Shown: positions 1,363-15,488 of the stretch, in pieces
How positions within the stretch are numbered: position 1 is the stretch's first letter
How the letters are laid out: each line of letters opens with the position of its first letter
IMG/VR virus record: IMGVR_UViG_3300047552_001104
Location: 1-21,313 of that record
From: a virus
Strand: one strand, 5' to 3'
DNA: 21,313 bases
Position numbers and translations under genes: made by a program
Notes under the pieces: model-generated
Databases searched by the model: none
The model's input: the letters and a program-made list of their open reading frames with translations, nothing else
Told to the model about the DNA's origin: nothing

Positions 1363-1397
1363 TGTGTATAAGTCGGTTATCCACACAATTATCCACA
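1363..1397. other. cluster of three DnaA-box-like 9-mers
   Basis: TTATCCACA occurs twice in direct orientation, at 1377-1385 and 1389-1397, with starts 12 bases apart. A third site on the opposite strand (TGTGTATAA, 1363-1371, reading TTATACACA) lies just upstream. All three match the bacterial DnaA box consensus TTWTNCACA. They lie between the leftward and rightward promoters, so host DnaA could regulate both operons or take part in replication start. The same TTATACACA box recurs at 5759-5767 in the second divergent region. Confidence 0.6.
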
Positions 1398-1438: not shown

Positions 1439-1502
1439 GTACCGTAGTCGATGGTACGTTTATTAGCCTTGCGTCCTATATCCTTCACATCACTCGCAAG
1501 GC
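1439..1502 (+). promoter_or_regulatory. two hairpins in the replication-operon leader
   Basis: The leader begins with GTACC/GGTAC (1439-1443 and 1453-1457). It continues with a perfect 8-bp stem, GCCTTGCG (1466-1473) with CGCAAGGC (1495-1502), enclosing a 21-base loop. There is no T-run after it, so it is not an intrinsic terminator. It may modulate translation or transcript stability; function is unknown. Confidence 0.35.
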
Positions 1503-1540
1503 GGTGTGTTGGATAGAGGAAGCTTTAAAAACAAAGCAAA

Positions 1541-2377
1541 ATGAGCGATGATGTAGAAATCGAGGATGGAAGTAATGACAGAAAATATTTCTCGTTGTTA
1601 CCACACTATATCCTCAATCACTCAACCGCAGTCGATCAAGCATTGTATATGCAGATGAAGCGATACTCCGGTGAGACAAAAAACGGTACTTGTTGGGCGT
1701 CAAAAAGGACACTTATGGAAAAACTAGGTGTCGGAAGAAAGGCGCTAGATAAGTCACTCGCATACCTAATCCAAAGAGGGTGGATTGAGTTTAAGGAAAA
1801 GAAAAAAATTGCAACAAGAGGCGGCGAGCAAGAGGTGTCTGTGTATGCCGTAAAAGATATTTGGAAGATGAATGTAGACTACTATAAAGGTGCGTCTGAA
1901 AGCACACACCTAGGTGCGTCTGAAAGCACACCCCCACCCAAAGGTGCGTCTGAAAGTACATCAAAGGTGCGTCTGAAAGTTCGCAAAGGTGCGTCTGAAA
2001 GAGCACCTAATAAGAACCATATAAACAAGAACCATATTAAACAAGATACAGCGGCTGCAGGAGCCGCAAAAAAAATTAAGGAAAAAAAGTTTACAAGTGA
2101 GGGAGCGGAGGTAATAAAACTTCTAGAAGCGGTCGATCCAAAAAATAAAACTTATTACAATCGACCACCTCAACGAGAAGCAGCAGATTTCATTGTTTCG
2201 GAGTATGGGATTGAGAGTGCGACGAAAGTCATAGCGCTTCTTCCAAAATATAACAGCTTGAAATTTGCGAAGAAAACATACACAGCGGTTCAACTTCGAG
2301 ATAACTGGTGCGCGATACGCGACTACCTAATTTCTCTAAAGCAAGATCAAATAGCTAAAAAATCAATGGTCGTATGA
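1541..2377 (+). CDS. lambda-O-like replication initiation protein carrying the origin iterons in its gene
   Basis: A 278-residue protein in three parts. Residues about 14-110 form a winged-helix domain of the replication-protein-O/helix-turn-helix type (helix with QALYMQMKRYSG, then WASKRTLMEKLGVGRKALD as the likely recognition helix-turn-helix). Residues about 117-170 are a low-complexity linker with GASES repeats. Residues about 185-275 form a helical domain with YYNRPPQREAADFIVSEYG and TAVQLRDNWCAIRDYL, a layout I associate with C-terminal domains of phage replication proteins. In lambda O the N-terminal domain binds iterons located in the O gene itself and the C-terminal domain recruits the helicase loader; the linker here is encoded by five DNA repeats, exactly as that model expects. 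No helicase or loader gene is visible, so the host helicase is presumably recruited. The start is chosen as the first ATG of the frame; it has no Shine-Dalgarno. It overlaps the next gene by four bases (ATGA). Confidence 0.75.
   Translation: MSDDVEIEDGSNDRKYFSLLPHYILNHSTAVDQALYMQMKRYSGETKNGTCWASKRTLMEKLGVGRKALDKSLAYLIQRGWIEFKEKKKIATRGGEQEVSVYAVKDIWKMNVDYYKGASESTHLGASESTPPPKGASESTSKVRLKVRKGASERAPNKNHINKNHIKQDTAAAGAAKKIKEKKFTSEGAEVIKLLEAVDPKNKTYYNRPPQREAADFIVSEYGIESATKVIALLPKYNSLKFAKKTYTAVQLRDNWCAIRDYLISLKQDQIAKKSMVV
1889..2001 (+). repeat. five direct repeats GGTGCGTCTGAAAG (candidate iterons)
   Basis: The identical 14-mer GGTGCGTCTGAAAG occurs at 1889-1902, 1913-1926, 1943-1956, 1966-1979 and 1988-2001. 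Start spacings are 24, 30, 23 and 22 bases, close to two or three helical turns. Copies 1, 2, 3 and 5 are read as GASE(S/R). Copy 4 is shifted by one reading frame and encodes VRLKV, yet its DNA is unchanged. That argues the DNA sequence, not the peptide, is being kept. Confidence 0.9.
1889..2045. other. putative replication origin (iterons plus AT-rich flank)
   Basis: The five iterons are followed directly by an AT-rich stretch (2006-2045) that contains two copies of AAGAACCATAT (2012-2022 and 2027-2037). Iterons inside the initiator gene next to an AT-rich unwinding element is the arrangement of the lambda-type origin. Origin function is inferred from this architecture. Confidence 0.65.
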
Positions 2378-2745
2378 AATATAAAATTAAAATTATTACT
2401 GGGTTTAGAAAAGATCAAGAATACTTAATCAGCGCCGAGGAAGCACACAAAGCGTATTACCTTTTTTTAAATCCTGATAAGCGAAGTATTTTTGATGGAG
2501 GTCTAGCAATACTTGGTGCAGAAATACGCAGGATTGAGCCAGATTACAACGGAACTATGGGTTGGAACCCAACATACCAACTCACCGACGACGACTGGAA
2601 CGAAATTAAAAACAAGGGAATTGACCGAAAATTACAGCGAATCATAACCATATCGTCAGATATCGCAAAATTGTGTTCACCGGAAGATCTAGCAAAACCG
2701 ATAACGCAGTTGACCGAAGAAAAATATAAATATTTACTCACATGA
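2374..2745 (+). CDS. hypothetical protein in the replication operon
   Basis: A 123-residue protein I cannot assign. Its N-terminal half alternates beta-strand-like stretches (KYKIKIITGF, GGLAILGAEIRRIEPDY) with a helix (AEEAHKAYYLFLNP). The middle has a Trp-containing turn and a WNEIKNKGIDRKLQ helix. There are no Cys/His clusters, P-loop or membrane segment. It starts inside the stop of the replication gene (ATGA overlap) and ends in the start of the next gene in the same way, so the three are very likely translationally coupled. A replication accessory role is possible from position only. Confidence 0.65.
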   Translation: MKYKIKIITGFRKDQEYLISAEEAHKAYYLFLNPDKRSIFDGGLAILGAEIRRIEPDYNGTMGWNPTYQLTDDDWNEIKNKGIDRKLQRIITISSDIAKLCSPEDLAKPITQLTEEKYKYLLT

Positions 2746-14684: not shown

Positions 14685-15488
14685 ATGAAAAGTTGTGTTC
14701 ATTGTAAAAAAGAATTTATACCTACAAATAACTCCAGAGGATTGTTTTGTTCAAAGGTGTGTTATGGGGATAGTAGAAGTGGTGTTCGTAAGACCCCAGC
14801 TATCTTAAAAATATGCGTGCATTGTAAATGTCAATTTGTGTTAAGGAGCGGAAACAAAGGAATATACTGTTCCAAAAACTGTAAATCTCAACACCAAAAG
14901 ACCTCTATGCTGGCAGAAAAAAACCCTTTTTACGGCAAAAAACATACCGACAGAGCAAAAGAGAATATTTCCCTACATTTTACAGGGTTGATGGTAGGCA
15001 AAAGTAATCCTTTTTTTGGAAGACATCATACAAAAGAAACGATTACTACCCTGTCAGAAAAAATGACAGGAAAGCCATCACCCATGAAAGGTGTTATACG
15101 GGATGATATTCGTGGCGATAATAATCCTGCAAAGAGTGCGGAGGTACGATTAAAAATAAGTAAAAAAAGACTTGGCGTACCAATACCAAAATTGCAAGGA
15201 GCAAATCATCCAAGGTGGAAAGGTGGAGCTGACTCTGAAAGTGAAAGGATACGTCACTCACCAGAATATCGTGAATGGAGGTATAAAGTATTTAAAAGAG
15301 ATAACTGGTTATGTGTCTGGTGTAACGAAAAAAAAGCGTACATAGAAGCAGATCATATAAAGTTATTTTCAGAATATCCAGAATTACGTTTGGATGTGAA
15401 CAATGGAAGAACTTTGTGTAGGAGTTGCCATAAAAAACGTCATTATGGAAACAAATTTACTAACGCGTATATATCTATAAGCCCATAA
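14685..15488 (+). CDS. NUMOD3-HNH homing endonuclease
   Basis: A 267-residue free-standing homing endonuclease. The N-terminus has two similar zinc-ribbon-like units (CVHC...FCSKVC at residues 4-26 and CVHC...YCSKNC at 44-66). The middle has NUMOD3-type DNA-contact repeats (KNPFYGKKHT at 79-88, KSNPFFGRHHT at 106-116, then weaker GKPSPMKG and GDNNPAKS). The C-terminus is an HNH nuclease with CVWC (210-213), EADHI (221-225, His224) and NNGRTLCRSCHKKRH (239-253). Such genes spread by cutting alleles that lack them. It sits between the capsid and beta-helix genes, has its own promoter and is visibly more A-rich than its neighbours, all signs of insertion as a mobile gene. No intron or split exon is seen around it. 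Confidence 0.9.
   Translation: MKSCVHCKKEFIPTNNSRGLFCSKVCYGDSRSGVRKTPAILKICVHCKCQFVLRSGNKGIYCSKNCKSQHQKTSMLAEKNPFYGKKHTDRAKENISLHFTGLMVGKSNPFFGRHHTKETITTLSEKMTGKPSPMKGVIRDDIRGDNNPAKSAEVRLKISKKRLGVPIPKLQGANHPRWKGGADSESERIRHSPEYREWRYKVFKRDNWLCVWCNEKKAYIEADHIKLFSEYPELRLDVNNGRTLCRSCHKKRHYGNKFTNAYISISP

Follow-up and report, generated by a model that had tools for sequence, protein, structure and literature searches.

A probable phage replication origin inside a winged-helix initiator gene, with DNA-binding domains and iterons that differ among relatives

The 21,313 bases analysed here (the window) make up a complete IMG/VR record, which is linear and has no terminal repeats. Its Pfam and PHROG matches include an Erf recombinase and terminase subunits besides a replication module and structural genes, and the record looks like a piece of a tailed phage genome. 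The Erf-family recombinase gene (144–929) is divergent from the initiator gene. An ORF flanked by structural genes (14685–15488) carries HNH plus NUMOD3 endonuclease matches and looks, by its sequence, like a homing endonuclease. A scan of genome contigs for the host gave a single weak match, to Clostridia, and a tblastn search with the whole initiator protein gave no match in annotated phages. The replication region has the following features:

1377–1385, plus strand: DnaA box TTATCCACA, perfect consensus (sequence; upstream boxes enriched in relatives)
1389–1397, plus strand: second DnaA box TTATCCACA, perfect consensus (same evidence)
1447–1533, plus strand: structured leader preceding the start codon (folding; weak in the window, z −2.3)
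1541–2377, plus strand: replication initiator gene, 278 aa (PF13730 HTH_36, E 1.9e-10; PHROG DnaD-like and replication initiation families)
1595–1891, plus strand: N-terminal winged-helix domain, predicted recognition helix at about residues 66–79 and wing at 82–104 (AF2 model)
1888–1902, plus strand: iteron 1, AGGTGCGTCTGAAAG (exact match)
1912–1926, plus strand: iteron 2 (exact match)
1942–1956, plus strand: iteron 3 (exact match)
1965–1979, plus strand: iteron 4, in another reading frame, coding for VRLKV (exact match; frame offset)
1987–2001, plus strand: iteron 5 (exact match)
2002–2046, no strand: AT-rich putative unwinding element, 29% GC, 56% A on the plus strand (composition)
2051–2067, no strand: GC-rich hairpin GCGGCT-GCAGG-AGCCGC with a 6-bp stem, at the edge of the AT-rich stretch (sequence; family-wide test)
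2084–2374, plus strand: C-terminal domain DPKNKTYY...LRDNW, common to relatives with other N-termini (sequence search)
2374–2745, plus strand: orf2374, a 123-aa gene for a candidate partner protein (synteny in relatives)

The N-terminus of the initiator matches HTH_36 at 40.8 bits, against a curated cut-off of 25. Its PHROG matches are DnaD-like loaders and replication initiators (PHROG 186, E 1.7e-11; PHROG 270), and both families match only the N-terminal part and the linker. The AF2 model of the N-domain has a pLDDT of 72, and the DnaD N-domain 2v79 is among its top PDB fold matches (E 5.2e-4). In the Pfam search, the window protein did not match PF04492 (Phage_rep_O). The C-terminal 97 residues form an all-helical, confident model (pLDDT 88), and searches of this domain against Pfam, PHROG, PDB sequences, and PDB folds gave no matches. 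Across the 27 members of its family, Pfam gave no meaningful match, and none to a DnaD-type C-domain, and PHROG gave only two weak, unnamed families. Alignment with the C-terminus of lambda O by hhalign gives a probability of 46–66%, with only an LRxKW motif in common. The C-domain, putatively partner-binding or helicase-recruiting, belongs to an undescribed family; the layout of an origin within a gene is itself already known.

Relatives were searched for in IMG/VR with the whole protein, which gave 11 loci, and with an alignment of the C-domain, which gave 31 loci; the contigs overlap. In most relatives, orf2374 lies directly downstream of the initiator gene, irrespective of the type of N-terminus. 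Its product had no match in family and PDB searches, and by gene position it may be a partner protein like lambda P or SPP1 gp39. Genes of the orf2374 type follow the initiator in L105, L122, L111, L108, L114, L126, L132, L118, and L107.

An earlier note, made from the sequence of the window, had claimed five identical 14-mers in the initiator gene. All five are present, and the invariant unit is 1 base longer, the 15-mer AGGTGCGTCTGAAAG. The rest of the record holds no further copy at up to 1 mismatch; shuffles of the window (n = 100, up to 3 mismatches) gave a mean of 0.4 matches and never as many as 6. An exact scan of IMG/VR for the 14-mer found 86 other stretches with a single copy each, which we take as background. 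The near-helical spacing seen in the earlier note is approximate only: successive copies are 24, 30, 23, and 22 bp apart, or 2.3, 2.9, 2.2, and 2.1 turns. Iteron 5 and its flank (1987–2008) form a perfect 6-bp dyad, AGGTGC-N10-GCACCT, and the other copies are partial dyads.

Relative to the gene start at 1541, the offsets of the iterons modulo 3 are 2, 2, 2, 1, and 2, and thus copy 4 alone is out of frame. In agreement with the earlier note, the four in-frame copies code for GASE(S/R) and copy 4 codes for VRLKV, with the DNA unchanged. That four of the five copies are in the same frame, with almost identical encoded peptides, could point to selection for the GASES peptide, or to tandem duplication, with no function at the DNA level. 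We consider this extremely improbable. Copy 4 retains the DNA and drops the peptide. Between the copies, spacer length (9, 15, 8, and 7 nt) and sequence vary, whereas the 75 core bases are without substitution. Synonymous recoding does not reproduce the array: the gene has 5 identical 14-mers, against a maximum of 3 in 20,000 synonymous recodings and again of 3 in 20,000 within-gene codon permutations. With an independent finder using a 12-mer seed, the window array exceeds codon-order and synonymous shuffles (0 of 25 in each case). In addition, the GASES peptide is retained in none of the relatives, whose arrays are of other sequences and in mixed frames. The recoding nulls and the mixed-frame arrays refute neutrality of the repeats as DNA and, together with copy 4, bear out the DNA-level selection proposed earlier. 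The iterons are conserved as DNA regardless of reading frame.

At least three iteron copies, beyond both nulls, are found in the window, L113, L122, L129, L133, L135, and L136, and all seven arrays occupy at least two frames; this count leaves out L130, a simple-repeat array, and L104, which is marginal. The four annotated iterons of lambda have offsets of 0, 2, 2, and 1 modulo 3 of gene O, at spacings of 20, 24, and 23. TP901-1 rep, used as a frame control, has only two copies in one frame. Because the iterons of lambda occupy three frames, and the arrays of these relatives more than one, a frame-shifted copy is the normal condition. It is sound evidence that selection acts on the DNA, but nothing peculiar to the window.

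The AT-rich stretch reported next to the repeats is there: no 45-mer of the gene is lower in GC than the one (27%) that begins at 2004, three bases past the array. So is the second direct repeat, AATAAGAACCATATA and AACAAGAACCATATT, of 15 bp, at 2009–2023 and 2024–2038. The hairpin follows. Taken alone, the window hairpin is marginal, with 231 of 5000 synonymous recodings equally good. Of 24 loci whose C-domains are at most 80% identical, 16 have a GC-rich stem that reaches the score threshold in the zone lying 100 to 35 bases ahead of the DPKNK codon, compared with 3.1 expected from synonymous shuffles (0 of 300), and other segments have such a stem in 0–4 loci. The sequences of the stems differ among relatives. 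An intrinsic terminator was considered and rejected for the hairpin, the tail being weak and on the minus strand only. The three-part layout of iterons, AT-rich stretch, and hairpin recurs in relatives.

In lambda, gene O contains both the iterons and the 40-bp AT-rich region that the O protein opens (PMC5043065, PMC7466680, PMC6022878). The window resembles lambda in its in-gene iterons, which are about 20–24 bp apart in lambda and in several frames in both; in the A-rich stretch directly 3′ of them (23% GC and 60% A in lambda; 29% and 56% in the window); in an inverted repeat, GTCAGAG...CTCTGAC, which lies past the A-rich stretch of lambda at the place of the hairpin; in the position of a candidate partner gene directly downstream; and in DnaA sites in the region (PMC3985674). 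It differs in having five iterons with a largely asymmetric core, whereas lambda has four with a clear dyad, and in its C-domain, which appears to be of another family, with the LRxKW motif alone in common. The origin had been called lambda-like in the earlier note. The term fits the layout of iterons, AT-rich stretch, and inverted repeat in the gene, but not the N-terminus, which is HTH_36 with a DnaD-N-like fold where lambda has Phage_rep_O. Judged by the N-terminal sequence, the window protein is outside the lambda O protein family, and the same C-domain occurs behind true lambda-O domains (L113 and L122).

SPP1 oriL lies in gene 38 and consists of direct repeats and an AT-rich DUE, and the SPP1 initiation set comprises gp38, the helicase loader gp39, and the helicase gp40 (PMC6316719). 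The window shares the published layout of repeats and AT-rich element inside the initiator gene; it differs in that no helicase or loader homologue is recognised beside the gene. DnaD and HTH_36 phage replication proteins are alike in the winged-helix N-terminus and DnaD-N fold, but the C-domain of the window protein is not DnaD-like. The replicons of the iteron plasmids P1 and R6K contain DnaA boxes and an AT-rich region besides the iteron array (PMC5043065), as does the window; its iterons, however, are in a coding region and its initiator is of another family.

The upstream region carries the two perfect DnaA boxes. In 13 of 23 loci, the 250 bp leading up to the start codon contain a plus-strand DnaA box (up to 1 mismatch), while all other bins have 0–3; permuted box words give a mean of 0.7 loci upstream, and 0 of 500 reach 13. 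Upstream boxes are seen in the window, L104, L107, L113, L115, L119, L126, L132, and others. The hairpin, DnaA boxes, and leader were picked after seeing the data; the first two were then tested across loci, and the leader only fold by fold. The earlier note had proposed cumulative GC skew as a check. Its minimum falls at 1341, some 550 bp to the left of the iterons, and speaks neither for nor against an origin at the array, given the linear 21.3-kb record and the switch of gene strand at that point.

The DnaA boxes, their recurrence in relatives, and the skew minimum upstream of the gene would suit a different role for the iterons, as autoregulatory operators that block transcription of the initiator, with the origin elsewhere, for example near 1341–1397. 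This is unlikely, since the gene's lowest-GC stretch and then the hairpin come directly after the array, in the order of lambda. In addition, lambda has DnaA boxes near pO together with an intragenic origin (PMC3985674), and the skew minimum falls on the switch of gene strand.

The layout is the same as in lambda and SPP1 oriL, and we therefore read the region as the phage origin. Very probably, it is a replication origin carried within its own initiator gene, of the lambda O and SPP1 gp38 kind; DNA binding and origin activity are what we infer for it from this layout. The N-terminal winged helix would bind the five 15-bp iterons, and the bound array would probably bend the DNA as one assembly. 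By analogy with lambda and SPP1, bending stress would melt the A-rich stretch at about 2002–2046. The C-domain and the product of orf2374 would then recruit the host replicative helicase. Host DnaA at the two upstream boxes would probably tune transcription of the initiator or aid activation of the origin.

Among the relatives, the C-domain is joined to an HTH_36 N-terminus in the window, L132, L133, and L135, and in L144 with a more distant C-domain. A PF04492 N-terminus of lambda-O type is fused to a window-type C-domain in L113 and L122 and, more weakly, in L105. Further relatives have N-termini of other types, with an iteron of their own or none detected. Many of these members have no clear in-gene iterons detected by the finder, which misses degenerate arrays and whose nulls preserve codons, not phylogeny; therefore, the C-domain family is not always found in this layout. 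The six HTH_36 proteins, that of the window included, have arrays at the same place and mostly at a spacing of 21–30 bp, and the array word differs in each (AGGTGCGTCTGAAAG, AAGTGGAGCTG, AAGTGCGAGTAATAAGGACA, AAGTGGAACCC, AGATAAGTCCCARAA, and AAGATACAGGCTGAA). In L132 and L133, which share a sample of origin, the C-domains are closely similar, yet the helices and iterons are different. The iterons of L113 and L129 are clear dyads. In short, the relatives differ in DNA-binding domains and iterons and retain the C-terminal domain and orf2374.

The earlier note had proposed a test of whether the recognition helix and the 14-mer change in parallel. Qualitatively they do, but changes are not significantly enriched in the helix (lowest p = 0.066, six proteins). 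As the helix changes are not significantly concentrated, co-evolution of helix and iteron is suggested by the sequences, not proved. The same result would fit iterons bound by a protein of the host, or by a different one of the phage, instead of by the N-domain of the same gene. Such a binder is very unlikely. The iteron varies with the DNA-binding domain, even within one sample (L132 and L133), which argues against a host factor, expected to retain one site, and the relatives with a lambda O domain bear dyad iterons of the lambda kind.

For the N-domain as the binder of its own iterons, a further step can be proposed tentatively, at less than even probability. The initiator gene might be an exchangeable cassette, in which the binding domain and the matching iterons are swapped together while the C-domain and orf2374 stay. 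The hairpin, fixed in position after the AT-rich stretch and before the C-domain and variable in sequence, might be a functional element of the origin (e.g., an unwinding stop, a priming signal, or an exchange junction), alongside the upstream DnaA boxes and the structured leader. In L136 (L136:2968–3702), the HTH_36 domain, with iterons, A-rich stretch, and hairpin retained, is joined to an unrelated C-domain, and a boundary of domain exchange near the hairpin is possible. This HTH_36 domain is 83% identical to that of L132.

A few model phages are known to have their origin within the initiator gene. The present family is a natural series in which a protein domain and its DNA site are changed and the remaining machinery is kept, which makes it possible to test what rules govern the choice of iterons by winged-helix initiators. 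Repeats kept across reading frames within a gene offer a simple criterion by which uncultivated phage genomes can be searched for origins. The conserved hairpin points to a part of the origin that is perhaps worth attention in lambda as well, which has its inverted repeat at the same place.

The leader folds with z of about −4 to −6 in L108, L113, L117, L118, L122, L132, L134, and L136. As a known RNA the leader was rejected: Rfam gave only tRNAs in the sequences searched, none of them at the leader. The leaders of L118, L130, and L132 are alike, each with a closing stem of unrelated sequence that encloses a GGTTCTNRCGAGCC-like hairpin. A scan of IMG/VR for this hairpin motif recovered the L132 and L118 contigs already in the set but no further locus with a long closing stem.

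Initiators that start with MAxRRMF (L107, L108, L114, L115, and L119) have a linker with TAGGTTAGGTAAGG-type repeats instead of iterons. By eye, the N-termini of this group look like those of replisome organizers; that of L115 has no Pfam match. Some of these initiators also have TGTATACA-like palindromes upstream.
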